Origin: Isoetes taiwanensis
Taxonomy: Eukaryota > Streptophyta > Lycopodiopsida > Isoetales > Isoetaceae
Reading direction: 5' to 3'
DNA: 64,000 nt
NCBI GenBank assembly: GCA_021234155.1
Contig: JAJEKV010000002.1
Coordinates: 23,696,942-23,760,941, forward strand
A program made the translations under genes and the position numbers. Shown in pieces: positions 1-62,449 of this stretch. Position 1 is the stretch's first letter; every line of letters starts with the position of its first letter. The notes below the pieces were generated by a model. The model was not told where the DNA came from. It saw only the letters and a program-made list of their open reading frames with translations, and did not search any database.

Positions 1-1139
1 AAAGGGCTACTCACGGGGTCATCATCCCAGTTCGATGGGGCAGGTAGGGATCACTCCCCCTCCGAGAGATCTACATGCCGACTCAAGGTGACTAGAGGGC
101 CACCGCCTCGTTGATTCGACCAACCCACTGGAAAGTGTACACCACTTCACGGGTGTCGAGCCCATGCCTTACCCGCACTCAGTGGTAAGCCATTAGGCCT
201 AGTCACAATGATCCCTGGTAGGCCTTACACACCAGAGGGATCGTTCAAGAGTCAGAACACGAACCTCCTTCTTAGCCCGGCCGCCCCTTCACCCACAACC
301 AGGTGTGGTTCTTGTACACAGGCGAATCTATGGTGTGCTAGAGAGGCTAATCTAGGAGCATCTACTACCAAGCTTGAAGTCTCTACCCCCCTTCCCAATA
401 CAAGGAGTTCACAGAGATACATCATCCATATACATCACAGAAGAACTAAAGAACATAGATCTAATCTATATCATAGAGTTAGGTTCTTTAGTTAGAGTCT
501 GGTATCTACTCATCTAGAGATCTAGATAGCTGCTAAAGGCGATTTAATAGGCTAAACCCTACCGATACAATGACCGGAAAGCGGTTTAGACCATTAAATC
601 GACTACATACCTGATCCATGAGTTGCCCCTCGACACTGAAGTTCGACCATCCCTCTTTGAGCTGCTTTCGAATCAAGGGAAACTAATGGTGCCATTCTCT
701 CGAGGCCGGAGTGCGGGAGGCTGATTTTGACTCCTAGAGCGACCAAAGCAGAGCTCTAAAACCCTAGGAACGAAAATGGGCAAGTTAGGGTTCTCCTACT
801 TAAATAGGCAAGGGTTGGGGCTTAGGGTTTCCAATTATCCCTTTAGGTATGTGGGATAATTGGAAATGGGCCCACTTGCCTTTAATGGCTAGGTGGCCAA
901 ATGTGCCTACATGGAAATGTGTGCACCTAAATGTGCCCACATGGAAATGTGTGCACCTTAATAAATGTGCATGTGCACATTAATAAGAAATGCACATACC
1001 TAGCAAGTTGCCCCTAGGGCTACTCACTGGCTACACGCGTCGCGCATTACCCGTCGGTTGGGTTGGCGTTAATGCGGCGTGACGAACGATGCAAGATATC
1101 GATCCGGGGACCGGGTATCTTTGGCTTTGGAACGTCACA
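1..1139 (-). mobile_element. LTR of Ty3/gypsy-like element A (cut by window edge)
   Basis: This block is repeated, with small indels and substitutions, at about 9946-11066, so the two form a direct repeat bracketing about 8.3 kb. On the minus strand the LTR begins TGTGACGTTCC at 1139, directly after a purine-rich tract, and continues past base 1. The partner LTR is about 1.6 kb, so roughly 470 bp lie outside the window. Parts of it match, in reverse complement, the LTR of element B at 36421-38013, including the CCCTCTGGTGTGTAA segment and the TGTGACGTTCC terminus. A and B therefore belong to one family, inserted in opposite orientations. It is the downstream (3') LTR of element A. Confidence 0.85.
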
Positions 1140-8420: not shown

Positions 8421-8594
8421 ACATCACACAGTGCGAGAATATCCTATTTTACTAAAATAAAACTACTACTTGCTAACTTCGTCCTAATTAAGCAAGATTT
8501 GACACATAAACTACTCAAAATTATCATGTATTAACAAAATTATTGATTATTTACAACATATCTACTAGGGATCTCCCTTAATTAAACTAGCTAA

Positions 8595-8810
8595 TTACAT
8601 GCCTTCCCTCATGAGGTTTACTCGCTTCGCATGAACAGTGCAGGCTGTTGAGTCTTCAAAATGTTGGACCAGCTTCTGCTCTGCTGCTTCTTGAGCCTTG
8701 GCCTCCGCTCTGGTTACGTCTTCTCCTCTTCTTGTTTCCTTGGCCTCCTTGGCCTCTGGTAACATTTAGCCTTGTCGAGAAAGTCGGTGATGCATTTTAG
8801 TGCGCATCAT
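8595..8810 (-). pseudogene. Histone H3-like relic in element A
   Basis: On the minus strand, a start at 8810 or 8807 reads MRTKMHH, reminiscent of the H3 start (M)ARTKQ, and soon hits a stop. The last 33 codons, ending in TAA at 8595-8597, read AQEAAEQKLVQHFEDS, then CTVHAKRVNLM. This matches the C-terminal half of the H3 fold (H3: ALQEAAEAYLVGLFEDTN, then CAIHAKRVTIM) and the homologous gene in element B ([26 protein letters not shown]). The part between tail and helix 3, including alpha-N and alpha-1, is deleted. It sits between palindrome modules, at the same relative position as the histone-like gene of element B. The sequence shows a relic. Descent from an intact retrotransposon-borne H3 is inference. 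Confidence 0.82.
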
Positions 8811-9455: not shown

Positions 9456-11066
9456 TGTGGCGTCCCCTACTCATATACGGTGCACTCACAGGTATACAAC
9501 GAGGAGTTCATCCCCATACCGGCTCCATGCTAATATAGGGCCCTCCGCGTATCACTTTGCAACCTTGAAGAGTTCGATTGGGAAGAATGAAGGGTCCTTT
9601 ACCTGTCTCCCTCGGGGCCTACCTAGGCTGCGGAGCGTGAACATACATGTCGGGGTACATACATCAACATCATATGACCATCACGAAGGATGGTCCTCCA
9701 CATATCTGCATAGACAAAGATCGGCCACATCACATAGGGAATCCTACCCAAGGCTCGAGACTCAAAGGGATGGCCCGGCGGCTTGGGTCTCCAGAGTTCA
9801 TTGCGGAGGCAGAATTCATGGCAATGGATTTGGGCGGCATAAGCTTTATGGCATAGGGTTGTCCACTCCATCCGCCCCTCGTGCACACTGCGAGTAAGAT
9901 GAAAAGTGTCGGGACTGGCTGTAGCCAGCCGGATGCATAGCCAAAAGGGCTACTCACAGGGTCATCATCCCGGTTCCGATGGGGCAGGTAGGGATCACTC
10001 CCTTGAGAGATCTACATGGCGACTCAAGGTGACTAGAGGGCCCTTTGCCGGTATTCCGGTGAACCCCTTTGGAAAGTGTACACCACTTCACGGGTGTCGA
10101 GCCCATGCCTTACCCCTTTTCGGTGGTAAGCCATTAGGCCTAGTCACAATGATCCACTGGTAGGCCTTACACACGGAGGGATCGTTCAAGAGTCGAACCA
10201 CGAACCTCCTTCTTAGCGGTCGGCCCCTTCACCCACAACCGGGTGTGGTTCTTGTACCACAGGCGAATCTATGGTGTGCTAGAGAGGCTAATCTAGGAGC
10301 ATCTACTACCAAGCTTGAAGTCTCTACCCCCTTCCCAATACAAGGAGTTCACGGAGATACATCATCCATATACATCACGGAAGAACTAAAGAACATAGAT
10401 CTAATCTATATCATAGAGTTAGGTTCTTTAGTTAGAGTCAGTATCTACTCATCTAGAGATCTGAATGGCTGCTAAAGGCGATTTAATAGGCTAAACCTCT
10501 TTGATACAATGGTGGAAAAGCGGTTTTAGACCATTAAATCGACTACATCCCCTGATCCATGAGTTGCCCCTCGACTGAGTTCGACCATCCCTCTTGGGCC
10601 GCTTTCGAATCAAGGGAAACTAATGGTGCCATTCTCTCGAGGCCAGTGCGGGAGGCGGATTTTGACTCCTAGAGCAGCCAAAGCAGAGCTCTAAAACCCT
10701 AGGAGCGAAAATGGGCAAGTTAGGGTTCTCCTACTTAAATAGGCAAGGGTTGGGGCTTAGGGTTTCCAATTATCCCTTTAGGTATGTGGGATAATTGGAA
10801 ATGGGCCCACTTGCCTTTAATGGCTAGGTGGCCAAATGTGCCCACATGGAAATGTGTGCACCTAAATGTGCCCACATGGAAATGTGTGCACCTTAATAAA
10901 TGTGCATGTGCACATTAATAAGAAATGCACATACCTAGCAAGTTGCCCCTAGGGCTACTCACTGGCTACGCGCGTCGAGCATTACGCCGTCGGTTAGGTG
11001 GCGTGTGTGGCGTGGCGAGACGATGCGATTATCGTCACGGGACCGTATATCTTTGTCTTTGGAACG
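9456..11066 (-). mobile_element. Upstream (5') LTR of element A
   Basis: On the minus strand this begins near 11066 (CGTTCCAAAG, with the terminal TGTGA lost or mutated) and ends GACGCCACA at 9456, next to the primer binding relic. 9946-11066 repeats 1-1139. 9456-9945 matches the 3' third of the element B LTR in reverse complement (for example the segment around 9740-9900 against 37550-37720). Telo-box-like AAACCCTA and the long run from 10700 to 10960 are shared by both LTRs of A. The ORFs in this interval are not believable genes. Confidence 0.83.
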
Positions 11067-22054: not shown

Positions 22055-22725
22055 TGTGACGCTTCCCGAACCTATACGATGCTCCCATCATATGAATACA
22101 TGAAATTCCCCTCCCATTGTGACTCCATCACCAAGGAAAGGACATCCGTCTGACTCGGACCACTTGTGATGGGCAAATGTCTGGGTGAAGGACACGAAGG
22201 TGTCATTTGTCCTACGCCTTCTATGGGAATCCTATACAACATAAGCGTACATACATGTTAGCACCTGGCAACAGTACAAATAAATAATATACCACCATGA
22301 GGGGTGGCCCATCCATCATCAATACCGATATACATAAGAAATGCACCATAAATAAGGCTCTACCCTGGACTCAGACACTGTGGGGTCGACTGACGGTCAA
22401 GGCCACCGGATAACAGTAGGCAGAAGTATAACATGGCGTTGGCTAGCACAGAACTATGGCTAGGGTAGTCCACTACATCCGCCCCTCCTGTGCACACTTT
22501 GCAGATAGGTTGGATCATGTTATGGCGTGGTTGTAGCCTTCCGAAGATGCAATCTCATGGAGTCACCCTATGAGACTACTCTAGGTTAAATCTCCTCAGT
22601 TTGATGAGGCAGGAAAGGGATGAATTCCCTCCAAAATTACGATGGTTCCATGGGTGTGCTAGAGGATACGTGCGCACACGCATCTGTACCCGACTTACCC
22701 CCCTGAATCTGTACTTATAGTCGGT
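22055..22725 (-). repeat. Inverted LTR arm, left
   Basis: This is the reverse complement, with scattered differences, of 22800-23460. On the minus strand it ends GCGTCACA at 22055, like the LTR ends of elements A and B. It contains the CAGGAGGGGCGGATGTAGTG segment related to 37576-37600 of the element B LTR. It is an LTR fragment of the same superfamily, but no primer binding site adjoins it. Confidence 0.75.
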
Positions 22726-22799
22726 CACTGCGTGTGGTCCGGATATGGGTCTGACACCTTCTGGGTCGCAGGATACATACCTATATGGATGCCCTGGAC

Positions 22800-23460
22800 T
22801 CGGTATAGATTTAGGGGGGTAAGTCGGGTACAGATGCGTGTGCGCACGTATCCTCTAGCACACCCATGGAACCATTGTGATTCTGGACGGGATTCATCCC
22901 TTTCTTGCCTCATTGGACCGGGGAGATGTTATCTGGAGTAGTCTCATAGGGTGACTTCATGAGATTGCATCTCCAGAAGGCTACAACCATGCCATAGCAT
23001 GATTCAGCCTATCTAGAAAGTGTGCACAGGAGGGGCGGATGTAGTGGACTACCCTAGCCATTGTTCTGTGCTAGTCAATGCCATGTTATACTTCTGTCTA
23101 GTGTTATCCAGTGGCCTTGACCATCAGTCGACCCCACAAGTCTGAGTCCAGGATGGAGCCTTTTTTATGGTGCATTTCCTATGTATATCAATGTCATATT
23201 ATTGTTCGTATTGATGATGGATGGGCCACCCCTCGTGGTGGTATACTAATTATTTGTATTGTTGCCAGGTGCTAACATGTATGTATTCCCATAGAAGGCG
23301 TGGGACGAATGACACCTCTGTGTCCTTCACCCGGACGCTTGCCCATCACAAGTGGTCCGAGCATCACAAGTGGTCCGAGTCAGACGGAGGGCCTTTCCGT
23401 GGTGATGGAATCGCCATGGGACGGGAATTTCTCGTATTTGTACGATAGGAGCATCATAGG
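22800..23460 (+). repeat. Inverted LTR arm, right
   Basis: The plus-oriented partner of the left arm, separated from it by about 75 bp. It matches the element B LTR 3' half (GCACAGGAGGGGCGGATGTA; the AATGACAC block at 23309 against 37871). ATCACAAGTGGTCCGAG is tandemly duplicated at 23347-23380. The arms could form a cruciform of about 650 bp per arm. The ORFs here are artefacts. Confidence 0.75.
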
Positions 23461-36420: not shown

Positions 36421-38013
36421 TGTGACGTTCCAGCATAATATATGCCCCGAATATGTATATTATACTGCCACGTCACCCGTACATGTCACGGATTACATGT
36501 ACTTGGTGGTTGTAGTAGGTTGCACCTAGGGGGCAACTTTGAATATTGTGCATGTTAAATAAACATACACAATTAATAACCCCCATGGACCCCATTGCCA
36601 AATGGCTAAACCCCATTTGCCAATGTTTTAACCTAACCTTAAAAGGGTTTCTATATAAGGGTTCCCCCTTAAACCCTAAACCCTTTCCTCCCTTTGCATT
36701 TTAGGGTTTTCATAGAGCTCCTTTCCCTTTTCGCATTTAGGGTTTCCTTGAGCCATTTCGGCCAAGTCAAGACCCCATTTCGCATTGCTTGGCTCTGAAA
36801 GCCGTCTTTGCACAACAGATCATCGAGTAGCAGCCATCTTCAGCAAGATCAGGAGCATGGATGCGTTCCGAGGATCCGGAGCAGGTCAAGGACCAGGTAT
36901 CTAGACATTCTGTTGTGCAAAGCCGTCTTTGGGCTAGGCAATGAGGTAGTTTAGCATATTCATTCAGCCATAGAGGCCTTATAGATCCCAAGATCATAAG
37001 CCCTAAGTAAGGAACCTAACTCTGTTGTTTAGGTAGATAGATTAGATGATATTCTTCATTTCAAGTTCTGTGATGATGTTGGTATTTCATTCTGTGACCT
37101 TCATGTATTGGGAAGGGGGGTAGAGACCTAGCAGCCTTGTAGAAGATGATCCTAGATTAGTATCATTAGTACCCAATTATTGCGGCCTGTGCACAGGAGC
37201 CCACGGGGTTGAACGTGGAGGGACCAGACCGGCAGACAAGGAGGTACTTGTCCCAACACAGATCAATCCCTCTGGTGTGTAAAGCCTACCGGGGATTCTA
37301 GTGAGCTAGGTCTAATGCCTTGCCACTGCGTGTGGGCAAGGCATGGGCTCGACACCCGTGGAGTGATGCGTCACTCTCCATTGGGTTCAAGTCGAATAAG
37401 GGCAGTGGCCCTCTAGCCACCTGTGTTGAGCATGGAAGCCTCTGGGGGAAGGGTGACCTTCCTCCTGCCTCATCGGGGCTGGGGAGATGCAACCCAGTAG
37501 TAGCCCTCTTGGCTATATACCCGGTAGGCTACGGTCCAGTCCCGATACTTATCAACCCACTCTGCAAAGTGTGTACAGGAGTGGCGGATGGAGTGAACTA
37601 CCCAACAGCCATGTTCCATTGCCAGCCAAATCCATTGCCATGAATTCTGTCTGCAATGACTTCTGGAGGCCAAGCTGTCAGTCGCACCCCTTGAGTCAGA
37701 GCCCCGGGTAGGATTCCCTTGTTGATATTGATCATACTGATGATGTTTGTATATGTGATGATGATGTTGTGCTCACCCTTCGAGGTGATTGTATTTATAT
37801 ACTGTTAGTGTGTGCTCATGTTTGTTTATTCATGCTTCCGCAGATAGGTCGACCTGATGGGAGATGGGTGAATGACACATCCATTCTTCCCTTGCTGGCT
37901 CATTCCACTGGGAGTGGAGTCAGGTGGATGGCCCCTGTCAGTGTAGCTGCCAGGGGGAATGCTCCTCCTTCGGATACGATGTGTGCATCGTATAAGGAGT
38001 AGGGGACGTCACA
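36421..38013 (+). mobile_element. 5' LTR of Ty3/gypsy element B
   Basis: It starts TGTGACGTTCC and ends GGGGACGTCACA, giving inverted TGTGACGT/ACGTCACA termini, and is 1593 bp. The primer binding site follows after one base. It inserted into the LINE. Blocks throughout match, in reverse complement, the two LTRs of element A. The 3' LTR of B is not in the window because the element is cut near 45640. Confidence 0.9.
36651..36683 (+). promoter_or_regulatory. LTR promoter: TATA box and telo-boxes
   Basis: CTATATAAGG at 36651 is followed by AAACCCTAAACCC at 36671. The telo-box is common in plant promoters of translation and histone genes. This is the likely start region for the genomic transcript. 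Confidence 0.6.
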
Positions 38014-38014
38014 G

Positions 38015-38026
38015 TGGTATCAGAGC
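38015..38026 (+). other. Primer binding site of element B
   Basis: TGGTATCAGAGC is complementary to the 3' end of plant initiator tRNA-Met, one base after the LTR end. It is the standard minus-strand primer site of plant Ty3/gypsy and copia elements. Confidence 0.92.
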
Positions 38027-38229
38027 ATGATCTTGGCAGACCAAGATCGAGCACTGACCATTTTCCCATAGGACTAACAGTAGATTCAAGCCTTGGGAGA
38101 TAGCCATCCAAGCAGGAACCTCGAAAATTGGAAAAAAATTTCCAATTTCTAGTGTAGTAAATAGGTTAATGCTAAGTTAGTAGTAAGTTAGCAGAAACCC
38201 AACCTAAAACAGCCAAGAACAGGTGAACC

Positions 38230-38293
38230 CTCACAGAGTGCGCCCAGACCAAATCGATTTGCAAACCAATTCTACCTTGGTGCACTGTGTGAG
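38230..38293. repeat. Palindromic module B1
   Basis: 64 bp, CTCACAGAGTGCGCCCAG to TGCACTGTGTGAG. The arms pair over the terminal 14-16 bases with few mismatches. The centre is ATCGATTTGCAAACCAAT. It is the first of five equal-length copies in element B. Confidence 0.85.
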
Positions 38294-38443
38294 TGGTGGA
38301 CCCTTGTTGACCTAGTTAAATGTGTAATTTAGCTAAAGTAATGGTACAGTTCAGCTTATCTCTTTGATTCTAGCTAGTTTTGCATGTTATAACACTAAGA
38401 AACCCCATGTAAATTGAGAATTGGACCCAAAAAGAGGTGACCC

Positions 38444-38507
38444 ATCACAGAGTGCACCCAGGCCAAATCCATTTGGAATCCGAATTGATCCTGGCGTACT
38501 GTATGAG
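38444..38507. repeat. Palindromic module B2
   Basis: 64 bp, opening ATCACAGAGTGCACCCAGG and closing CCTGGCGTACTGTATGAG. More diverged than the other copies. It lies about 100 bp before the TATA box of the histone-like gene. Confidence 0.82.
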
Positions 38508-38598
38508 TGGTGGATACTTTATAGCTAAGCAAACCTAAAGTACCCCTCAGATCTTCACTAATACCTTCTAGATTGGCCCAATATGAAATTACAGGTCC

Positions 38599-38628
38599 AA
38601 ACCCTAAAATTCCCCTGCCTATAAATAG
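38599..38628 (+). promoter_or_regulatory. Internal promoter of the histone-like gene
   Basis: A telo-box AAACCCTAA (38599-38607) and a consensus plant TATA box CTATAAATAG (38619-38628) lie about 110 nt before the ATG at 38729. The same TATA context, CCTATAAATAG, recurs at 40654 before the next ORF. Confidence 0.6.
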
Positions 38629-38728: not shown

Positions 38729-39861
38729 ATGGCCCGCACCAAACAGATAGCCAGGATCACAGTGCCCCCTGGATATGTGAGCGCCCAAGAGCGAGCAGCT
38801 CGGCAGAAGGCCCGACGGGCTCAGGACTGAGCCGAGCGAGAGCAGGAAGAACAGGAGGCCCAACCTAACCCAGATGCCCAAGAGGAGGCCCCTGAGCACC
38901 AAGAGGAGTAGCGGCCCCGAGACCTTGAGGAGGGGGGTGAAGAACTCACAGCAGAAGAAGCCGCAGAGTTGCTGCAGAGGGAGCTCGAGAGAGAGCTCTT
39001 CAAGGACGTTGACAAGGAAGGAAGAGAAGAAGCAGAAGAGGGAGGAAAAGAAGAGGCGGCGGGAGGAGCGCGAGAAGCTGAGGGCAGCGAAGGGAAAAGC
39101 TTCTGCGCTGCCAAAGGACTCAAAGCGCAAGATGAAGACGACTCCCGCCAAAGGAGTCACTATCCAGGAGCCAGACCCTGAGAAGCCACCGTCCTCGTCT
39201 GACACGGAGTCAGATGAGGGAACTAGGGGGCCCGACCCAACTGAGGGCTTGGGACCCTCAAATACAACGGGAGGAGGACGATGTAGTAGCAAGGGCGCCC
39301 CCGTACCCTATGTGGCCGTCGCCAAAGCACCCCAGCGACAGCACCAAGAAGCCGAAGCCACAGAGGAAGTCGTATATACTCAAGCAGGACCTTGAGTATA
39401 GGAAGAATCTGAAAGAGTACACTTCATACATGAAAATGTACGAAGAATACTCTAAGTATTATGACGAGCACAAGGTCACGTTTGTCGAAGGAGGCCGGCC
39501 GACTAAGAAGAACACTCTGAAGCCGCCACCTGAGAGACCTGCTCCACCGAAGAAGCCCCAGAAGAGGAAGGCGAACTCCCGATTTTCCAGAGCTGCTCGG
39601 GAGATCCGACATTTTCAGCAGAGCTATGGCCTTCTCATCCCCAGAGCTCCCTTTGCGAGGCTGACACGGGAAATTTTGCAAGAATTCGACAAGGCCAAGC
39701 GAGTCACAGATGATATGTTACTCGCGTTACAGGAGGCAGCCGAGCAGCACGTGGTCTGACACTTCGAAGATTCTGTTGTATGTGCCATGCATGCAAAAAG
39801 AGTAACTTGTATGCCAAAGGATATAAGGCTAGCCCAATACATAAAGAAGGAGCCCTATTAA
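38729..39861 (+). pseudogene. Histone H3-like gene carried by gypsy element B
   Basis: The ATG at 38729 encodes MARTKQIARITVPPGYVSA. Nine of the first ten codons including Met, except positions 6 and 9, follow the H3 tail (ARTKQTARKS): K4 is kept, K9 is Ile. A long charged linker follows in shifted frames (Glu-rich, then KREEKKRRREEREKLRAAKG, then KKPQKRKANSRFS). From 39577 comes an H3 histone fold: AAREIRHFQQSYGLLIPRAP (alpha-N), FARLTREILQEF (alpha-1), LLALQEAAEQHVV (alpha-2), a TGA at 39757, then [20 protein letters not shown] and [11 protein letters not shown] (alpha-3). Loop 1 has the same length as canonical H3, which argues against CENH3. The whole unit is about 375 codons against 135 for H3, because of the linker. 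Stops at 38828, 38909 and 39757 and at least two frameshifts make it a pseudogene. It lies between the primer binding site and gag, with its own TATA box. Confidence 0.9.
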
Positions 39862-40006
39862 GACTGTTGTAAATAAATTTTGTTAATACAAGTTTGTAAT
39901 TTGGATGAGTTAATGTGTTTAATCAGGTGTAAGTAGGATGTGTTACTAAGTTCTGTACTTGGAATTAACAAATTTGGAGCAAAACCAAGTGTTTTTGACC
40001 CCACCC

Positions 40007-40070
40007 CTCACAGAGTGCGCCCAGACCAATTCGGTTTGCAAATCGATTCGACCCTGGCGCAGTGTGTGAG
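40007..40070. repeat. Palindromic module B3
   Basis: 64 bp, CTCACAGAGTGCGCCCAGAC to CTGGCGCAGTGTGTGAG. The centre is TTCGGTTTGCAAATCGA. It starts about 145 bp after the histone-like gene. The arms are strongly complementary. Confidence 0.87.
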
Positions 40071-40210
40071 TGGTCGAGCATGGTTTAATGCCAAATCTTG
40101 TTCAAATGCAGAAAGTAAGTATACCATTCGACTCAAACTCACCTTAATTAGTAGGATTTGATCCTAATTTGTAGAAATTGGCCAACCTTAACTCAAATGG
40201 AGCCCTACCC

Positions 40211-40274
40211 CTCACAGAGTGCGCCCAGACCAATTCGGTTTGCAAACCGATTCGACCCTGGCGCACTGTGTAAG
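40211..40274. repeat. Palindromic module B4
   Basis: 64 bp, CTCACAGAGTGCGCCCAGAC to CTGGCGCACTGTGTAAG, with the perfect palindrome CGGTTTGCAAACCG at its centre. Spaced 204 bp start to start from module B3. Confidence 0.88.
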
Positions 40275-40415
40275 TGGTCGACCCCAAAACTAGGCCAAAA
40301 CTTGTCCAAATGAGGCAAGTAAGGGCTTAATCCGACCTATCTCGACGAGATATGCATGATTCTACCCTTAGTTTCCATGTTTGGCATCATCCTTGACCCA
40401 AACAAGGCCCCACCC

Positions 40416-40479
40416 CTCAGAGAGTGCGCCCAGACCAATTCGGTTTGCAAACCGAATCGACCCTGGCGCACTGTGTGAG
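40416..40479. repeat. Palindromic module B5
   Basis: 64 bp, CTCAGAGAGTGCGCCCAGAC to CTGGCGCACTGTGTGAG, centre CGGTTTGCAAACCG. Spaced 205 bp from module B4. The regular spacing suggests that a unit of about 205 bp was amplified. Confidence 0.88.
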
Positions 40480-40654
40480 TGGTCACACTAAAATTGCCCT
40501 AACTTGTCCATACTTTCCGCAAATTAGGTGAAATTTGTTGCTATAGGACCCTTAGAATGCTTTCTTTAGCATAGTTAGCCTGTGAATTGCATAGTTAGAC
40601 CTTAGAATCATAGATATTTCCCAACTTTGAATTTTCCCAAAATTATGGTTTTGC

Positions 40655-40665
40655 CTATAAATAGG
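40655..40665 (+). promoter_or_regulatory. Second internal TATA box of element B
   Basis: CTATAAATAGG lies 109 nt before the ATG at 40774, the same arrangement as before the histone-like gene. It suggests a separate transcript for the accessory ORFs. Confidence 0.5.
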
Positions 40666-40773: not shown

Positions 40774-41151
40774 CATGGTAACCACTGCATTCAGGCGATG
40801 GTACAGTGCCACAGCTCATGTGGCCGAGGTGACATCAACTCCGTCTTTGCCGTCTTCCAGAAGGAACTTGATGTGGAAGCCACCGTCAATGCCACCCCTT
40901 TTTACCAATACATTATGTCTGAGTTCCATGCCAAGATAGGACCATCCTTGGTAGAACTCCCACCTTGCATAGGATATTTTGCCCCCAGCATGGCCCTTAA
41001 GTCAACCCTGCAGGATATCCCAAACATAGACAAGTGCTTAGAGAACAAAGCAGTTTGCCTACCCAATTACATGTCTATCTCTGTCAATAGGAGGAGGTAC
41101 ACTACAAGAGAATGCATGCTAGACGTCAGGCGGTCCAAGGTGGGTTTTTAA
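40774..41151 (+). pseudogene. Accessory ORF2 of element B, unknown
   Basis: The ATG at 40774 (MVTTAFRRWYS) leads into a frame broken after about 50 codons. The overlapping frame 40798-41151 reads TPFYQYIMSEFHAKIGPSLV and then a long run to CMLDVRRSKVGF. The two probably form one decayed protein. I recognise no domain. It has its own TATA box and follows three palindromic modules. Confidence 0.4.
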
Positions 41152-41395: not shown

Positions 41396-41481
41396 ATACA
41401 ACAGCCATAGCTATTTTTCTATCTCTTCGAGGCCAAACCCAGATAGGGAAACCCTCAGTGCAGCCTTTAGAAGTTGAACCC

Positions 41482-42517
41482 ATGGCCATGGCAGCAGCAG
41501 AAGAGGAGCAGATGCACCTCGAGTACGAATAGGAGGGAGAAGAGGAGGAACACGGGTCGGATTCAGAAGGAGAGGCAACAGGCAGGGCAGCAGCTCCAAA
41601 GCTTTGAAGAAGGACTCAGAGCAACAAGAAGAGCCCCACCATTTGGGCAAGGAATAACAAGCTTGACCCTAGTGTTCATAGGAGGAGAAGCATACTTAAG
41701 CCTCCATGACATTAAAAATCTTCCAGAATGCAGAGATAGGGGTTTCAGAGTGGATAAAATTTTGCATCTCCTACGGCAACAACCAGATCTCGACGACTTC
41801 ATCGATCGAGAAAATCAAGACTTCCCCATCAGCATAAGGGAAGCCAGGACATACACCGGCGAGACGTCATCAGACATCGAGGCTTACACAGGCATCAGAC
41901 AAATGATGATCGAGAGGGAATTGCCGTTAGAAGAAGAGTTCCTGGCAATCCAAGAGCACATGGGCATCAAGGGTAAGTCGACATCAGCACTCTTACCTAG
42001 CTCATCGGCAATGGCACAAGGGCAGCATAGAGGCAGCATCAACCTGACGAAATTAGTGCACCAGGACTTCAGAGAACTGGAGGAGGTGCAGGTTGACAAG
42101 TACGCAGGAAGACATAGGGCAACCTCGACATCTGCTGAGGAAGCAGGGCATGATAAATCCATTACTCCTAGATGGAAGAATAGCGGTTATACACCGCCAA
42201 TTTAGCCCCTTTATGCTTATCGCCCTCTCGGGATTAGAAATCATTCTCGGATGGCCCCAAACGTCGACCATGTCGTCCTTATCAAGAGAACGATAGCATT
42301 AAGTATCTTCGACTTCGCAGTCCCCTACAGACGGCAGGGCAGGTTGGCAGTGACGGCAGCATATACTTCGGATAGGAGGATCGAGGACCTAGTGACAACA
42401 CTTCAAAAAGGCACGGCCACAAACATCCTCAGGAACCTAGGGAGAACAATCGGCACGGCCCAAATGAAGAAACTTTTGGAGGACAACCCTGATTATTTGA
42501 AGAAATTCCAGGAATAA
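41482..42517 (+). pseudogene. Accessory ORF3 of element B, unknown protein
   Basis: The likely start is ATGGCCATGG at 41482, giving an acidic MAMAAAEEEQMHLEY. The frame then shifts near 41590 into one that stays open to 42517 except for a TAG at 42203. The protein (about 345 codons) contains GEAYLSLHDIKNLPECRDRG, DLDDFIDRENQDFPISIREA, and at the end RIEDLVTTLQKGTATNIL and NPDYLKKFQE. No known Gag, Pol, Env or chromatin domain was recognised. Two ORFs between the LTR leader and gag, besides the histone-like gene, are unusual for Ty3/gypsy elements. Confidence 0.5.
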
Positions 42518-42695
42518 AATTAATAATGTTTTCAATTTTCTGATATCTTGAATGTAAAAGCAATAATATATCTATGAATATAAACCATGACCTTAATTAT
42601 GTTTTCTTGTCATATAATTTTGTCCCCTCAATTACATCATCAAACAACCAATGCAATGACAAAATAATGAACTAATCATCAGAGTATAATCTAAT
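42518..42695. other. Spacer before gag
   Basis: AT-rich spacer between accessory ORF3 and gag. No gene is seen. Confidence 0.4.
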
Positions 42696-43856
42696 GTGTA
42701 TGCAGCTAGAGTACCTAGAAATGTTGAACAACAAGGACATCAGGACCAAGAGCGTACTCCACCAAGGCATTTCCAGCCAAGAAAACTACGCCAAGAGTTT
42801 GATGCAGTAACTCCAGAGGAAGAGCTATCACAGATTCGATCCGACATTCATGAGATAAGGGCATTGCTGGCAGTAGCAGCAACAGGAGGGCAAGACCAGA
42901 ACGTGCCATTGCCAGAAACACCGGTCGGCCAAACAATACAACAAAGGAAGAGAAGCCGCAGAAGAAGGTTCCCTAGCTCGGGTTCCTCCGACTCTAGTTC
43001 AGACTCGGATTCCAGATCGGAAGAGCAGGAGGAGAGACAAGACCAAGCAAGAAAGCTCGAGCAGTTCTCAGGAGACACCAGATCCGGAATGGAAGCAGAA
43101 GCGTGGCTTCATGAAATGAGGGAATATGGTAATGCTTATAGCATGAAGGACAAGGACAAAGACTGAGTAGCTACAGCCAACCTGAAAGGAGCATCTAGGA
43201 TTTGGTAGAAGGGCTACTCCAAAGCACATGGACTGAGCAGGGACAGTTGCAGGTTCAAGAAGTTTGCTAAGGCTTTCAAGCGCCATTATGTGCCAAGAGA
43301 GCACAAGTGTCACATGATGCAGCAGTTCTACCGATTGCAGCAAGGCAACAAATCAGTTCAGAAGTACACGGAGGAATTCATAAGACTAAGGCTCTATGTG
43401 CCGAAGTTGAGTGAAAGACACGCAGTGGAGGGTTACATAGAAGGGTTGAATAAGGAGATTCGAAAGCTAGTACGAGCAATCAACCCTAGGACGGTGTCAG
43501 AAGCAGAATCCAAAGTGGTCAGCTTGCAAGGGACGGGACCCCAAGAGAATGCACCAAGGCAGCAGTATTTCCATGACAAGGGAAAGGGCACGGGAGGCTA
43601 TAGCCCAAAAGCAGCGAGCCCAGCAGCCAGCAGGCCTCAGTACAATGCTAATTACGGGAAGCAGGGCAATGCAAACTCTGGCAAGCAGGATAAGAAATAG
43701 GTGACCTTCAAAGAGCAAGGAGGGGGATCCAACTATTCCAAGGCAGTGAGACAGTTTTTACAATCCGTTCCCAAAGAAAAGAAGTAGGAGTGCATAGAGA
43801 AGCAGCTGTGCTTTAGGTGTTTCCAACTAGGGCATAAGACAAACAACTGCCCCCTG
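42696..43856 (+). pseudogene. Gag of element B
   Basis: One frame with a few stops (43164, 43206, 43698 and 43785). The N-terminal part has a coiled-coil-like segment and SSGSSDSSSDSDSRSEEQEE. The capsid-like part reads FKRHYVPREHKCHMMQQFYR and SVQKYTEEFIRL, typical of plant gypsy retrotrans_gag. A zinc knuckle CFRCFQLGHKTNNC (CX2CX4HX4C) lies at about 43811-43852. It packages element RNA into particles. The upstream start is unclear; translation could begin at 42696 or earlier. The gag frame continues in-frame into the protease. Confidence 0.85.
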
Positions 43857-45640
43857 ATGATGAATGCAGCATTAGCGGAGATGGGATGGGAGACACCAAC
43901 GGAAGCTGACGACGACGATGCACCGGACTATATTCATAGTGAGTGCCATATTTTTGCAGCCATTGGTACGGAGAATGCAGAAAGCCAGTACCAAGTAATC
44001 TCCACAACTGGGAAAGCCAAGGAGAAATCTTTCATAGTCTTGATAGATACAGGGAGCACCCATAACTTTGCATCGCCAAGAATGGTACAGACATTGAAGC
44101 TTAAGCCCTTGAAGTCAAATCATAGACCGGTTGTGTTGGCTAGTGGAGCAATCAGGCACACAGCAGGAAAAAGAATTAACTTCAACGTAGACTTGCCGGG
44201 AGTCAACATAGCATTGGGAGCTGAAGTGATGAACATCGGGAAATATGATTTGATAATAGGAATGGAGTATCTTGGACCAGCAGGAGTCATCATTGATTGT
44301 GGGAAACGTAAGGTGACCTTAACAACGCCGAAAGACAAGATCATCGAGATAGCAGGTAAAGAAGTAACACCAATTATGCAATGCATGTCGAGTGAGAAAT
44401 TACTTAAGTGCATAAGGAAGGAGCAAGTGGCCTACATCTTCAGACTCCAAGCGGACGAGGAAGAGACGGAAGAAGAGAAAGAGGCCAAACCATTGAAAAA
44501 GCTCCCAAAGCCTATAGCAAAGTTGATAAAGGAATTTCATGACTTGTTTTCTGATGAGATCAAGCAGCTTCCACCCTATAGATGAGTCGAGTGTGAAATA
44601 GCACTCGAATCAGGGACTAAGCCAACGAGCAAGGCACCTTATAGAATGTCAACCGAAGAGTTGACGGAGTTGAAGAAGCAACTGCAAGAATTGCTAGATC
44701 TAGGATTCATAAGACCTAGTGTCTCTCCTTTTGGAGCGCCTATCCTTTTTGTGAAGAAGAAGGATGGAAGCCTTAGGATGTGCATTGACTACCGCCAGTT
44801 AAATAAGCACACCATTAAGAATAAGTATGCCTTGCCTAGATCAGATGATCTCATGGACCAGTTGCAGGGAGCGAAGGTCTTTTCTAAGATAGACTTGAGA
44901 TTAGGTTATCACCAGATCAGGATCAAGGAAGAAGACATCCACAAGTCGGTTTTCAGAATGAGATATGGCCACTATGAGTTCACGGTGATGCCATTCAGTT
45001 TGTCCAATGCGCCAGCAACTTTCATGAGGCTCATGAATGACGTCTTCCGTGAATTCCTAGATTCTTTCATCATAGTCTTCTTCGACGACATCCTGGTGTA
45101 CAGCAAATCTCTGGAAGAGCACGCCCAACATTTGAGAAGGGTGCTCGAAAAGCTAAGAAGGCATCAACTCTTCGCGAAGCTATCTAAGTGCCACTTCGCG
45201 ACGGAAAGAGTGGAGTCTTAGGGCATGTGATTTCAGCGGAAGGCATCTCCACGGACCCTGCTAAGATTGAAGCAGTGATAGACTGGCCAGCACCAAAGAA
45301 TACGCATGAAGTAAGGAGCTTCCTCGGCCTAGCAGGCTATTATAGAAGGTTTGTCAAGAACTTTGCAAAGGTAGCAACGCCATTGACGGACCTCATTAAA
45401 GCAGGGAAGATAAAAGATTGGGCAATTCATTGGCAAAGCAAGGCCCAGAAAGCTTTTGACACATTGAAGGAAGCATTGACGACGGTGCCAGTTTTGGTCT
45501 TGCCAGACCCGGCCAAAGATAAGCTTGTGGCGACGGACGTTAGTAGAATAGCTACAGGTGCAGTCCTCATGTAGGAGGAAAGGGTAGTGGCCTATGTGAT
45601 GAATTTGAAACACAATATAACTGATAGATAATCTATTCAA
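43857..45640 (+). pseudogene. Protease and reverse transcriptase of element B
   Basis: This continues the gag frame. The aspartic protease reads FIVLIDTGSTHNFAS (DTGS active site) and DLIIGMEYL. After a TGA near 44583 the reverse transcriptase shows [51 protein letters not shown] and [14 protein letters not shown] (FFDD catalytic box). A one-base deletion near 45220 shifts into the frame with [19 protein letters not shown] and [17 protein letters not shown]. RNase H is only begun ([16 protein letters not shown]). The rest of RNase H, the integrase and the 3' LTR are missing, because copia sequence starts near 45645. Confidence 0.92.
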
Positions 45641-45644
45641 TCAA

Positions 45645-46180
45645 TGTTTTGAATAGAAACAAGCAATGAATTTCAAGCAATTTGCCTTATACGGTTTATC
45701 TTCCAACTTAGACAAAGATATATCAAACCTTATAAAAACTACAGTAGAGTTACAGGTATTGACCAAGCTATTGTAGCTTGGTTGACCTGCATCCGATAGC
45801 CCAAGCATTAGGTCCGATCACCATATTCACACCTGCATTCAACTTCAATACCATCCATTTAATACTTCTTATTTCTGTTATAGCCCCGGATCCGGACGCC
45901 TAGGCGAACCGATCGAGCTGGGCTTATCCTGTAGAACTCTAACAGGAAAGTTTAAACAAGGTTTCCCCCTTCGACCCATATTAGGTGTCCACTTACCTTA
46001 AATAACTGCTTCATCGAACCTTACCTTAAATAACTGCTTCATCGAACCTATGGTTTAATGGTCTCAAGGCACCTTTGAATGAAATTCCTTTACTTCCACT
46101 TGGTTTAGCATATTTCAACCTTAAGGCAATGTCTTCAAGCCCAACTGAATCAAACCATTATAACATGAATTATTCTAACA
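45645..46180 (-). mobile_element. 3' LTR of a Ty1/copia element (minus strand)
   Basis: On the minus strand the LTR begins TGTTAGAATAATTC at 46180, just after a purine run GAAGGGGGAA that also encodes the last residues of the copia ORF. The other end is probably TTCAAAACA at 45645, but without a second LTR this boundary is only a guess. It lies in the RNase H region of element B, so copia inserted into B or a rearrangement joined them. Confidence 0.65.
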
Positions 46181-46524
46181 TTCCCCCTTCATGTTATAAT
46201 CCAGACATCTGATTAAACACTTAAGCTCTGTAAACCTTTTTTCTGGCAATGCCTTAGTGAGTAAATCTGCTAACTGTTTCACAGTGTTCACATATGTCAA
46301 CTTAACTATGTTTTTCCCAACTATTTCCCTGATAAAATGCAGCTCCAAATCGATGTGTTTTGACCTCTCATGAAACACAGGATCCTTTGTCATTGCTATA
46401 CAACTTGTATTGTCACAGTATAACTCTGTTGCCTTGTCTTGACTGTGACCAAGTTCTATCAGGAGTCTTCTTTCCCATATGACTTCTTTTGTGGCACTAG
46501 ACATTGTCCTGTTCCCGAAAATTG
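46181..46524 (-). pseudogene. Copia RNase H C-terminal fragment
   Basis: The minus frame reads SSATKEVIWERRLLIELG, ELYCDNTSCIAMTKDPVFHE, RSKHIDLELHFIRE and TKALPEKRF, and ends MKGEC-stop at the LTR. These are the standard end motifs of plant copia RNase H (CDN, KHI-hFIRE, LADLLTKAL). The earlier part of Pol is missing. Confidence 0.88.
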
Positions 46525-47260
46525 TGAGAAGAGTGTCCAGGACAGCTGTTTGGAAGTTGGTGAAATCTAACAGAAGCAAGACATGTGCTCCTCGCTTCTG
46601 TTGCCATTTATGATAGAGATTGGTAAAGTATGGTTTGAGGCTATTGAATCTCCAAACCTCAGCCCTTTTCAGCATTTTGTTGATTGCTTTTGCATGCACA
46701 ACTTCATGTTTAAGTTGAATTAGAATACTTTCTAGTTCTGCTTAAGATAATTGGGATTCCTCATCCTCCTTGTTTACTGCTACTCCCATAGCTCGATCCA
46801 TGCTTCCAACATTGTTAAGTCTCCTCTGTGCATCTGTGTAGAACATCATAAGCAATTGTTAGATTAGCAACAAAAGCATGTTTAAGAATAGGAGTACCTC
46901 TGAACTCGTGACTGCCTCTCCGCTTGATTTTGTTCAATTGGTTTCCCTGTTCGGCATTGATCTCCTCAAGAATCGGGTGCGCCAGGTGAGTTTGCATTTG
47001 AATTGGGGATATGGATTGTGATCTAGTCGTTCGATCTCCTCCCGCCATCGGCATCAACTAGTCACCACAGGTAAAAAAGGAATTTTTATCCCTGTCTATT
47101 CCCTTCTCCCCTGTTTCTGATATGGCTCGTACCATGCCAATGATTTGTTCCTTATCCTGATTGGACATTCTGCCAAAATACATCAACATCCTTTTCTCAA
47201 AATCTTTCCCACTGTCCTCTTTTTCTGACCCAATTGTCCAATGGTTGTTGATGGCATATA
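46525..47260 (-). pseudogene. Unknown coding segments upstream of and in frame with copia RNase H
   Basis: On the minus strand a frame from about 46845 to the RNase H fragment is open except for one TAA at about 46743. It reads SMDRAMGVAVNKEDEESQLS, LIQLKHEVVHAKAINKML, EVWRFNSLKPYFTNLYHKWQ and VLLLLDFTNFQTAV. The ORF at 47057-46815 (GGDRTTRSQSISPIQMQ) and an open piece at 47100-47250 (FEKRMLMYFGRMSNQDKE) may belong to it. None matches copia Gag or Pol that I recognise. It could be captured host sequence. Confidence 0.4.
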
Positions 47261-58290: not shown

Positions 58291-58879
58291 CGTGCTCATA
58301 CGTAAAAAAAAATCGCCATCCAAATAAGCTTAATCTCGCGACTCTTGATAACCCCTAACGGCCGGGGCTTTAACCCCAAACATCCCGCACTATTTGCACT
58401 AGCCCCGAAACATGCTATCAAAATTATTGCTCCTCACCGCCTGATGCTTACCTTGTCAAACTTCGGGACAAGACCTCCCGATCCGAAGAAGACCCGCTTT
58501 TTTGAGTTTTCGGGCGGACAGTTCTAGTGGGGAGACCTTGGCATGGGCTTTCTGTGTTTGTTTGCAGGAGATTTCCTTGGAGATGTCTTTGTTCCAAGCT
58601 GCTTCATCATGATCTGTTCCCCGGTGCTTCACTCTCGAAAATGCAAGCTTTTGGCTATGGAAGTCCCGATCTTGGCTATGGAGGTTGAATATGGATGTCA
58701 AGCTTTTCGGCTATGGAGGTTCGGAGGGAGGGAGGTTGAAATGAGAGCGGGAGGAGAGTTCAAAATTATTTGCCCTATTAATGATTCATTCCAAGAATAA
58801 TAATTTTGGGAGGGATTTCCTTACATTTTGAATTTGTAAATGTAAAATACTGGCACTTTTTTTTCCCACCCTTTCATAA
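58291..58879. other. No gene recognised
   Basis: A spacer between the RING-like exon and the recombinase gene. It contains GGCTATGGA(A/G)G three times (58650-58725) and weak inverted pieces. No gene is seen. Confidence 0.4.
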
Positions 58880-60374
58880 CATCCTTGTACGCTCGCATAT
58901 GCCCGTTAGAATTCACAGGTTGACTTATTATATTCATATACACATTGATTTTTGACTCTCCAGTTTGGTCATACCTGCAAATATATGTTAATATAACAAC
59001 AAATAAAATAGACATAACGAATAGATAAGCATTACCTTTCATAACCTGGCGTGCTTCTATGACCAGTAATCGCCATGCCTATGTCAGAAGGAACACTAGC
59101 AGCTAAAAGACGTGAGACCAATGAAACCCTGCCAGACTTATTGCAGATTTCAGTATCGGGATGAACTGTCGCAGCCATCGTATTAAGCCACTTGGTAATC
59201 GAATTGATACCAACAGGTGTTACATTCTTTTTGTACCTAAGAATAGGCTGCAGAAAGAAAGGACGTGGCTGCGAATCATTTTCTTTGGCAGGCAAATGTC
59301 GAACATACTGCTTATAAGTCAACACGAAATCATGCTCATATGTCCAAACAGGTTGACGGAAGTGATGATCTTCAAATTTTGTGGCACTCGGATTATGGTT
59401 CTTACTCAAATGTTCTCCATATTTTACGAACTCCCCACCTTCATTAACCTCAAGAGTCATATCACAATCTTTGACTCTCCACAACTCCTTGTTTCCTCTA
59501 ATGCCAAAATGCGTCACCATATAATAAAACAACCTTTTGATACAACCTGTGGGATGCATGTTTTGATGATCTATATCATCCAAAATGTCCTTTTCCATAG
59601 AGAAAGTAATGGGAGGAGCTTTCTTCTTTGGCTTCTCATAATTTCCATCTTGTCTCAGCTTCTTGACCATGCAGATGAATGCCTCACGTGTCTGCGTAAA
59701 GATGGGATCGTACAAGATATTAAATGCAGGTAGATGAACACCTGTTTCTCCTTGAACCTTTTGCTATTCCCTACGCACAATCCTTCCGATGCCTCTCAAT
59801 AGAGAGTTAAGACTATAATACAAAACAAAAAATACATGGTTAAAACATAGACAACAAAAATATAATAAAATAGAAAATAATAAAACAGAAATAACAAAAA
59901 AAAACTTACGTTCCAGGTGGGTAGACCTTTCCATTCTTCTTCTTAGCCTAATAGAAAAAGATAAGGATAAGAAACAACTAAATATAAAATATAAAAAATA
60001 GAAAGAAGAAAGCCAAATTACCTAAAGAATAAACCGTATTGTTATCCTGTTAAGCTCAACCAAATTCAGCTTCTCAATTGGAATAGATACATCCATACCA
60101 AAATCTTTTCTCCACTCGTTGAACCTTCTTCTTGCCCAGCTATTAACAGTCCTTGATCGATCTGGACCGCCATTCAAAACTTCAGACAGCAAGTCCTCGT
60201 CAAGAGGAAGCCAATTCTCTTTTGGATCATTTCATCTTCGTCACTACTGTCGCCACCGAACTCTGCCAAGATGTTTTGGCTTTCTTCCAAGGTAACATGA
60301 CTTGAAGGCATTAAACAACTATCTCCAGGTAACAGACTGAATGTTGGCTGAGAAGAGTCACCCATGCTTGCCAT
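58880..60374 (-). pseudogene. Crypton-like tyrosine recombinase gene, N-terminal and core copy
   Basis: On the minus strand the start is the ATG at 60374 (MASMGDSSQPTF). Exons: 60374-60022 (SAM-like N-terminal domain, TVNSWARRRFNEWRKDFG), 59947-59910 (AKKKNGKVYPPG), 59812-59036 and 58974-58880. The long exon carries TLNSLLRGIGRIVRR, YDPIFTQTREAFICMVKKL, FYYMVTHFGIRGNKEL (first catalytic Arg), VSRLLAASVPSDIGMAITGH (His-box, then R), and across the last intron the catalytic Tyr (GYER|Y). The order matches Crypton-type, ZMYM/KIAA1958-like recombinases, which cut and join DNA via a 3'-phosphotyrosine. A frameshift near 60230 and TAG codons at about 60022 and 59766 disable it. The end after AYKDV is lost. 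Confidence 0.85.
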
Positions 60375-61023
60375 TCTGACAGACAACCATATTAAAAACA
60401 ATCCTTCCACCATAGACATTACATTAACTCAGTCTATGAACCTGTTCTTTGCAGTACAAATAACCTGCATTATAAACAAAAATAGAAGACATAAATAAAA
60501 AACAGAAGCATGTAACATAAAAATCAGAAGCATGTAATAGAAGGAAATAAATAAAAAACAACAGCTTTTTCTCACCGTAAGAATATACAATGATGATATC
60601 CTTGCTGTCACACAACCACACTGTACTTCTTAGTCGAGATCTGCAACAAACACACAAATATAAACACATGCAACCCAGAAATCACTAAATATATCACAAA
60701 CATTACCTGAAAGAACAAATATTACCTGCCAGAACAAGTCGAGCTGCCAGAACATTACCTGTCAGAACAAGTCGAGCTACCAGAATCAAGAATGCATGTA
60801 AAATAGATTATAAAGAACACTAGTTTCTCGCCAAGAGGTCTTCTAATGACATGCCAGAACAAAAAACCTAACAAAGGACAGAAATAACAAGTTAGATTTA
60901 AAAGAAAACAACAAAATAAACAAATTCTTGAAGCATATCCTCACCAAACAAAATACAACCGAGAAGAAAGTCGCCAGAAGCTACCGGAAGTGCTCTACTC
61001 CAAAAAAACTCCAACAAGTTTCA
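60375..61023. other. Upstream region of the recombinase, no gene
   Basis: AT-rich with repeated ACATTACCTG(C/A)CAGAACAAG (60722 and 60755). It probably contains the promoter of the minus-strand recombinase copy. Confidence 0.4.
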
Positions 61024-61247
61024 AGAAACTTGAAGAACTTGAAATTTTTTTAACGAAATCATATCTACCTATCTCATCGCCTAAGCAGTGCTACTACACC
61101 GACGAGAATCAGCTCGCCGGAATAAAGCAAGGGAATTCGCCGATTCTCGCTGGTGTAGTGGCGCTGCTTCTTCTGATCGGTTCCGGTGAGGCGCTGAGAT
61201 AGGTAGATAGGATTTTGTTAAAAAAATTTCAAGTTCTTCAAGTTTCT
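61024..61247. mobile_element. 224-bp hairpin element at the recombinase breakpoint
   Basis: Terminal inverted repeats of about 52 bp: AGAAACTTGAAGAACTTGAA at the left and its reverse complement at 61228-61247. Inner inverted parts TGCTACTACACCGACGAGAA and CTCGCTGGTGTAGTGGCGC are also present. The whole sequence can fold into one long hairpin. It ends exactly where the second recombinase copy begins. Confidence 0.8.
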
Positions 61248-62449
61248 AAGAACCATAATCCGAGTGCCACAAAATTTGAAGATCATCACTTCCGTCAACC
61301 TGTTTGGACATATGAGCATGATTTCATGTTGACTTATAAGCAGTATGTTCGACATTTGCCTGCCAAAGAAAATGATTCGCAGCCACGTCCTTTTTTTCTG
61401 CAGCCTATTCCTAGGTACAAAAAGAATGTAAGTTTCTTCCATTATTTTATTTTGTTAATTTTCTATTTTTTCTTTGCAGTTTTAAGCTTTTTTTGTGTTA
61501 ACATTTTAGGTGTAGTATGCTGTAACACCTGTTGGTATCAATTCGATTACCAAGTGGCTTGATGGCTGCGACAGTTCATCCCGATACTGAAATCTGCAAT
61601 AAGTCTGGCAGGGTTTCATTAGTCTCACGTCTTTCAGCTGCTAGTGTTCCTTCTGACGTAGGCATGGCGATTACTGGTCATAGAAGCACGCCAGGTTATG
61701 AAAGGCAATGCTTATTCTATTCATTATGTCTATTTTATTTGTTGTTATATTAACATATATTTGCAGGTATGCTCGAACTGGGGAGTCAAAAATCAATGCG
61801 TGTATGAATATAATAAGTCAACCTGTGAATTCTGACGGGCATATGCGAGCGTACAAGGATGTTCTTGCGGGTAAGATTCTTTGAACTTTATTTTTATTAT
61901 TTTTATTATTTGCTTTATTATATTTTTTAACTTTCTGTTTATATAGATGAAGTCACAAAACAGAATGCTGTTGGAACTTCAGTTCCGCCACTCAAGAAGT
62001 CTCTTCATGAGTTGAATGGAAATGTGACAGGATCGTCAGTTCTGCGTGCTGTAAATCAGAATGATATTAGTATCAAAGTCAATTCAGGAGCTGCCGTTAG
62101 TGCATCTGACCAGGGACAGTTAGATGGACATCGAGATGTTAGTTCTGCAGTAGTTCAGGTTGGTCCTGGCGAACTTTCAGAGAGTGGAGCAGGTGGTAAA
62201 TTGATAGTGTCAAATGGTCCAATTGTTAGACCCTCTATCGAGATCGATGACGATATCTATGATGCTTCGTTCTATGATGAACTTAGCAAGGTGTATCCAG
62301 ATAGTGCCAGGGCGATAGAGAAGTACACAGGGCCAGTCATAAATACACAAGGCACATTTAACAATTGCAACTTTAATTTTTCTGGTGGTGTGGACATGAA
62401 TCAGGTTCTTGATGTTCTCTCTGCTGCATTGAAGAAGAATCAGGGATAA
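61245..62449 (+). pseudogene. Crypton-like tyrosine recombinase gene, C-terminal copy
   Basis: Plus-strand exons 61245-61427 (SKNHNPSATKFEDHHFRQPV), 61522-61704, 61767-61870 (YARTGESKINACMN, with the catalytic Tyr first) and 61947-62449. It overlaps the other copy from SKNHNP to AYKDV. The last exon is unique to this copy: DEVTKQNAVGTSVPP, IDDDIYDASFYDELSKVYPD and INTQGTFNNCNFNFSGGVDM, stop at 62449. The C-terminus resembles no domain I know. A 5-bp deletion (LNT lost before MAATVH) breaks the frame, and the third donor reads GC instead of GT. The 5' half is absent. Confidence 0.83.

Follow-up and report, generated by a model that had tools for sequence, protein, structure and literature searches.

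Core histones encoded by viruses include the histone doublets of the Marseilleviridae and the H4 of bracoviruses. The genes we investigated share with these the presence of a core-histone homologue on mobile or viral DNA; however, the virus-encoded histones belong to DNA viruses, whereas here an LTR retrotransposon carries H3 alone. In variants of the CENH3 (CENP-A) type, the H3 fold is preceded by an N-terminal part that is long and divergent, and the element proteins resemble them in this respect, a likeness read with CENH3 left out of our fold tree. CENH3 is a host gene present in few copies, whereas the H3 genes described here are multi-copy and dispersed inside transposons, and we do not class them with CENH3.

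The chromoviruses of non-seed plants (Tcn1, Galahad and related clades; PMC2864245, PMC3350952) are, as the available portions of the two papers describe them, similar in having LTRs, a primer binding site (PBS) of the Met-tRNA type, the order gag-protease (PR)-reverse transcriptase (RT)-integrase (IN), a chromodomain and a lycophyte host. The same portions of PMC2864245 and PMC3350952 mention no histone gene in the Selaginella chromoviruses, whereas the elements described here have H3 and a further two ORFs in the interval from the PBS to gag. Searching titles and abstract openings in open-licence PMC, a scope that leaves aside subscription journals and preprints, we found no report of a histone-coding retrotransposon. 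Within the literature searched, this is a chromovirus-type LTR retrotransposon with a gene so far unreported from such elements.

Our starting point was a window of 64,000 nucleotides from the lycophyte Isoetes taiwanensis, which contains a Ty3/gypsy element (element B) and a decayed relative on the opposite strand (element A). We regard it as close to certain that a Ty3/gypsy chromovirus lineage has, in the interval from PBS to gag, a gene for an H3 paralogue that is a regular part of the element and under selection, and that this lineage comprises two diverged families, B (the family of element B) and C.

Results

The H3-like gene in element B

An earlier note on this DNA had claimed an H3-like gene between the PBS and gag of element B, with an H3-type tail start and a long charged insertion between tail and fold. 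Each part of this description is confirmed. By direct reading and translation, the ATG at 38729 opens MARTKQIARITVPPGYVSAQ; a long charged stretch with frame changes and stops follows; and the histone fold is then reached in a frame different from that of the tail (Table 1). When the fold segment was searched with an X in place of its in-frame stop, it gave a strong match to the Pfam Histone model PF00125 (E = 3.2e-23), and its score of 82.7 bits, against a curated cut-off of 26.4, identifies it as a core histone. Of 181 PDB matches, the best 60 are entries for histone H3 or for a histone domain (best E = 1.7e-23), which places the fold with H3 rather than with H2A, H2B or H4, and the identity with canonical H3 is 55% over 87 residues. 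The Pfam and PDB matches rule out a chance similarity to H3. The predicted structure of the fold segment has a mean pLDDT of 66 and a pTM of 0.33, with only the later helices predicted confidently. The window copy cannot make a protein, because it contains at least two frame changes and in-frame stops.

Table 1. Features of elements A and B in the 64,000-nucleotide window.
Feature	Coordinates	Strand	Remarks
5' LTR, element B	37003..38013	+	ends approximate; about 70% match to element A; full-length matches in fetched copies, e.g., L010, L011, L013, L026
PBS TGGTATCAGAGC	38015..38026	+	direct reading; identical 12 bases after the LTR end in L029-L031
Two imperfect palindromes of about 75 bases	38228..38514 (38228-38297, 38440-38514)	+	self-comparison; 38228-38297 folded as hairpin
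TATAAATA	38620..38627	+	109 bases 5' of the H3 start codon; possible promoter for H3
H3-like gene, element B	38729..39861	+	MARTKQ... tail, then charged middle and histone fold; frame changes and stops disrupt the gene
H3 histone-fold segment	39577..39858	+	one in-frame stop; PF00125 3.2e-23; PDB H3 about 2e-23
Three further palindrome copies	39999..40484	+	5' of orf2; self-comparison and hairpin folding
Second TATAAATA	40656..40663	+	5' of orf2
orf2	40798..41151	+	no Pfam match; dN/dS 0.18, 18 copies
orf3	41474..42205	+	no Pfam match; dN/dS 0.31, 14 copies
gag region, broken in window copy	42251..43700	+	dN/dS 0.10, 13 copies
Aspartic protease (RVP_2)	43857..44585	+	1.3e-10
Reverse transcriptase (RVT_1)	44646..45574	+	1.5e-33 for 44646-45218
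3' LTR, element A	1..1134	-	cut by window edge
Decayed H3 C-terminal part and some bases beyond, element A	8468..8693	-	about 0.8 kb after the element A PBS
5' LTR, element A (decayed relative, opposite strand)	9456..11066	-	approximate

Within element B the gene is situated 3' of the LTR end and the PBS, whose sequence we take to be of the initiator-Met tRNA type, and 5' of gag, PR and RT. Part of the gag region (43290-43697) is 43% identical to the gag of family C, whose ORF matches Ty3_capsid and Retrotrans_gag, and orf3 is weakly similar to a family-C ORF in locus L029 (tblastn 4e-4, 24% identity). A 3' LTR of element B was not found within the window. A copia-like RT/RNase H fragment, recognised by eye on the minus strand (46175-46699), lies just after the RT, and element B seems to be cut off there. 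The palindrome occurs in element B in five copies of about 75 bases, two before H3 and three before orf2; folding of one copy before H3 and of the three before orf2 gave stable hairpins, and the palindromes are possibly regulatory.

Element A retains an LTR pair with 92.3% identity (9944-11066 against 1-1134), and its LTRs are between about 63% (global alignment) and about 70% (local) identical to that of element B. Its H3 remnant occupies the position that matches the H3 of element B, and is detected by tblastn with 2.4e-7 against the whole window and 1.4e-12 against a 1.7-kb stretch alone, and by blastn with 2.3e-19 at 64.5% identity. Elsewhere in the window we observed a long inverted repeat (58878-61863) whose arms are 95-98% complementary over about 490 bases in three blocks, with an inner distance of about 1.8 kb; a 336-base inverted repeat (22379-23138), 90% complementary, with 88 bases between the arms; and a 72.5% match to the element-B LTR at 22360-22512.

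Family B across the genome

We searched the I. taiwanensis genome (1,658,258,908 bases in 1110 contigs). The first-look candidates, which numbered 826 for the fold, 9014 for canonical H3, 12410 for the ORF of the family-C locus L030 and 3038 for gag, are not copies, and only the best were scored. The fold segment yielded 40 scored places, the window and 39 others with 79-94% identity. Twenty loci of about 10 kb each, the next ranks after the window by similarity of the H3 fold, were fetched, and 17 of them are collinear with the order LTR-H3-orf2-orf3-gag-PR-RT as far as each runs. The three that the script scored as non-collinear are L018 and L021, through a match to the repeated palindrome, and L022, where the 3' LTR scored best. 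An LTR match is present upstream of H3 in 17 of the 20 (none for L015, L018 and L021), and downstream of H3 orf2 was found in 19, gag in 15 and RT in 11. The two LTRs of L024 are 97.2% identical.

Since these loci had been picked by their H3 fold, the association was also examined in reverse, starting from 40 scored gag loci. Fifteen of these have one of the 40 listed H3 places 3-5 kb upstream in the same orientation; for another two the distance is 10 and 17 kb. Ten further gag loci were probed in windows of 551 bases, of which six contain H3 sequence and four do not; the two steps together cover 25 of the 40 loci, with the pair at 10 and 17 kb counted among the remainder. The expectation that other copies of the element carry H3 at the same place is therefore borne out, in 15 of the 40 gag loci and six of the further ten. 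It is possible that H3 is absent from some family-B copies, because four of the ten probed loci gave no H3 in the 551-base window and the tally takes in 25 of the 40 loci. That a host H3 pseudogene was inserted once by chance is ruled out by the H3 of element A, the 39 other places, the collinear copies and the selection described below.

Of 21 family-B copies, 17 have the motif TATAAATA 5' of the H3 fold, at comparable positions, and four do not have it before the gene; in nine of the 21 it is also found before orf2, 0.86-1.07 kb 3' of the fold start. It was not found near the H3 gene in three family-C loci.

A sister family with a near-canonical H3 fold

The search of the genome with canonical H3 gave 150 scored places, which comprise 15 canonical genes (96-98% identity) and 135 places whose fold is 71-86% identical, a large number of them inside long open frames. 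Three loci of 8.5 kb (L029-L031), which represent family C, contain an LTR, a PBS of the family-B type, an ORF of about 410 residues and further ORFs. This ORF ends in a near-canonical H3 fold of about 100 residues, whose identity to canonical H3 is 81-85% across L029-L031, with PF00125 matches of 1.2e-41 in L029 and 2.5e-41 in L030 (141-142 bits); the fold is joined to a new N-terminal part of about 250-300 residues. A protein search with the whole ORF returned 5821 matches, of which the best 120 cover 23-41% of the ORF, by its H3 fold. For residues 1-260, none of 2034 candidates reached E <= 0.001 in a search of 5.8 billion proteins that reaches proteins sharing short exact words.

The L030 ORF gave 102 scored places, including L030 itself, with 77-100% identity. 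Of these, 68 have no in-frame stop, a count that leaves room for frame shifts outside the matched stretch, and 55 of the 68 match over residues 1-409. A PBS with an LTR end is located upstream in six of eight sampled family-C windows (none in the other two), and gag downstream in four of four. L029 and L051 are parts of one element, whose two LTRs are 95.7% identical over 1334 bases and which carries a stop-free H3 ORF. To the note's question whether full-length copies with both LTRs carry an intact ORF, the sister family thus offers one element with two LTRs and a stop-free H3 ORF, L029/L051; the window copy is broken, and no 3' LTR of it was found in the window.

In L029 the H3 ORF is followed by gag, protease and integrase with no RT between them, the gag-protease ORF running straight into the integrase (L029:5931-8075); L029 is apparently a natural deletion derivative. 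No match to gag or pol was found in L030 and L031 within the 8.5 kb of each. These two loci share 93% up to about position 4980, beyond which they have no plus-strand match to each other; they are possibly non-autonomous or interrupted elements.

Both families are chromoviruses

The integrase of family B in L050 ends in a chromodomain (PF00385, 1.8e-9), and a chromodomain 95% identical to it (8e-38) is present in L049, with one stop just before it. In family C, the chromodomain of L051 is 64% identical to that of L050 over 47 residues (1.9e-18). All three integrase ends examined, from both families, thus carry a C-terminal chromodomain, and for this reason we classify families B and C, by sequence, as chromoviruses with their own H3. 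The Ty3/gypsy features comprise two LTRs (95.7% identical in L029/L051, 97.2% in L024), a PBS, gag, and PR, RT and IN domains, with IN following RT where L009 continues into L050 and L025 into L049; this layout is pieced together from several loci, given that L029 has no RT, L024 no PR and RT, and element B no 3' LTR.

Selection on the element H3

The median pairwise dN/dS (Nei-Gojobori) of the family-B fold is 0.124 in 21 copies, and that of the stretch before the fold 0.125 (21 copies), in a codon analysis whose alignment columns were limited to those present in the window copy. The tail and middle of the protein, at 0.23-0.33 (15-18 copies), are under weaker selection than the fold. The corresponding medians are 0.10 for gag (13 copies), 0.17 for the protease (11) and 0.095 for RT (11), whereas the noncoding controls from the same loci gave 0.83 for the leader (18) and 0.84 for a spacer (16), and reading the fold in the wrong frames gave 0.92 and 1.53. 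The constraint on the fold is therefore close to that on gag and RT, unlike the noncoding controls, and in family B selection has preserved the H3 fold with roughly the same strictness as the element's enzymes. It is the source copies that are under selection; copies once inserted decay.

For family C, 17 ORFs (the three loci and 14 added ones, the latter chosen as stop-free) gave a dN/dS of 0.057 in the fold; elsewhere in the protein the values were 0.069 (residues 1-200), 0.103 (first 30 residues) and 0.236 (linker). Drift of the element H3 is ruled out by the values for the two folds. Repeated fresh capture of host H3 could be suggested as the cause of low dN/dS; however, the N-terminal part is shared, and all 17 ORFs have the derived fold residues F54, T86, F87, A107 and L124, which are absent from host H3. 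Because these changes are common to all and absent in host H3, the 17 ORFs descend from one element H3.

Tail and fold residues

The element proteins share the H3 fold with canonical plant H3 (host loci L046 and L047). Of the 20 fetched family-B loci, 19 have a readable tail start, which is H3-like in 18, the reading of L018 having begun further in. Compared with the start ARTKQTARK, family B retains ARTKQTAR, with K4 kept in all 18 readable fetched tails and in the window; position 9, readable in 17 fetched tails (L017 is frame-shifted there), is K in two (L011 and L015) and I in 15, as it is in the window. Family C has a short xTK start alone. Unlike canonical H3, family B has a long charged insert, has lost the RPGT of the aN region, and has K56 replaced by Q or R, K79 by D, and R63 changed. 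Because of the changes in RPGT, K56, K79 and R63, the family-B H3 may not form ordinary nucleosomes.

Family C departs from canonical H3 by its new N-terminal part and by fixed changes that include S86T and S87F; residues 86-87 are adjacent to the loop that determines which chaperone H3.1 and H3.3 use. Charged linkers are present in the H3 proteins of both families. C110, H113, R116 and D123, which we take to be residues of the H3-H3' interface, are kept in the five family-B and nine family-C folds compared; D123 is lost in L027 of family B. The nine family-C folds also keep R63, K64, R69, R72, R83, K115 and K122, to which, as to the interface residues, we ascribe presumed roles in the dimer and in DNA contact.

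Discussion

One or more captures of H3

In a tree of the fold sequences, family B forms one group and family C another; family C is close to canonical H3, and family B is placed on a branch of 0.97. Independent uptake of H3 by the two families, or a later replacement of the gene, is favored by this distance and by N-terminal parts that look unrelated by eye. The AU-test disfavors a single clade of B and C (p = 0.0175), although the family-B branch is very long and the group was named after a tree had been seen. The two are, however, related elements, with the same H3 position, the same PBS, a similar LTR end, gag, a chromodomain and an orf3-like gene. We give independent uptake, which is compatible with any function of the protein, slightly less than an even chance. 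Judging from the sequences, the candidate histories are one ancient capture with divergence, two captures, or replacement, and the lineage may have acquired H3 on more than one occasion.

We also noted several H3 proteins with long tails (P0003-P0024, source 'ena'), which come from single contigs. P0003, P0005 and P0017 share a distinctive fold and form one group in the tree (support 100/100), and P0003 and P0005 have repetitive tails. An origin of P0005 from the I. taiwanensis genome was rejected, its best match there being canonical H3 with 79% over the fold. These proteins could represent a further instance of H3 genes that are multi-copy or mobile. Scans of viral contigs found no relative.

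What the element H3 may do

That both elements in the window carry broken copies, as is often found for old transposon genes, would fit a passive transduction, in which a host H3 was caught once and has hitch-hiked without function. This is contradicted by the dN/dS of 0.124 and 0.057, against 0.83-0.84 for the noncoding sequence of family B, and by the similar constraint on gag and RT, and we consider it extremely improbable. Selection shows that the element H3 protein mattered, not what it does. The roles suggested in the earlier note (altered nucleosomes, a mark for or against silencing, compaction of particle DNA) are accordingly conjectural. Taking the evidence together, we lean, if only slightly, toward a selected chromovirus H3 whose nucleosomes would resist silencing. 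The mechanism, which we put forward tentatively as the best of several, is that the element H3 enters nucleosomes and resists H3K9-dependent silencing. It would pair with host H4 and enter chromatin via the conserved H3-H3' interface. Nucleosomes with this H3 would lack silencing lysines, given that family B has mostly I in place of K9 while keeping K4, and that family C is without the canonical tail. On new cDNA or at element loci, such nucleosomes could resist H3K9-dependent silencing and favor expression, and the integrase chromodomain may read or avoid the tail of the element H3. The TATA-like motifs before H3, and less often before orf2, suggest internal transcripts in family B, with H3 made apart from gag-pol. 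The anti-silencing reading is weakened by the two of 17 readable family-B tails that keep K at position 9.

An alternative explanation is that the protein compacts newly made cDNA inside the particle or pre-integration complex, either together with host H4 or by means of its basic linker, acting as a nucleoprotein rather than as an epigenetic variant. The charged linkers of both families, the location of the gene before gag and the loss of several features of ordinary H3 in family B are consistent with such packaging; however, the strict selection on the family-C fold (0.057) and the kept interface residues suggest a full H3 function, and the ARTKQTAR tail kept by family B would be unnecessary, so that we think this explanation unlikely. 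We assign a similarly low probability to a role in integration, in which the element H3, by its tail or its fold, would act with the integrase chromodomain to tie the integration complex to chosen chromatin or to compete for host readers of H3. There is a precedent in the chromodomain of MAGGY, which, according to PMC3350952, recognises H3K9me2/3 and directs integration; a chromodomain is present in the integrases of both families, and the family-B tail keeps K4. Nevertheless, family C has no ARTKQTAR tail, only the short xTK start, which argues against targeting. Returning to resistance to silencing, the elements may represent a chromovirus clade with its own histone-based chromatin system, in which H3 is loaded on element DNA and would be unable to take the usual silencing marks; we hold this with less than even confidence. 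Expression of the H3 variant is possibly driven by a promoter of its own, and the chromodomain integrase possibly reads or avoids it.

Some of the unusual plant H3 variants found by searches may be such elements. I. taiwanensis, a host with many transposon-borne H3-like frames, provides a natural series of H3 folds under selection beneath very different tails. The contest over silencing would become directly testable here, with a family-B tail that keeps K4 and mostly drops K9, and an integrase that carries a chromodomain. Our findings suggest that the H3-carrying elements manage chromatin themselves; if this is true, a retrotransposon providing itself with a core histone would be a novel strategy by which selfish DNA copes with chromatin.
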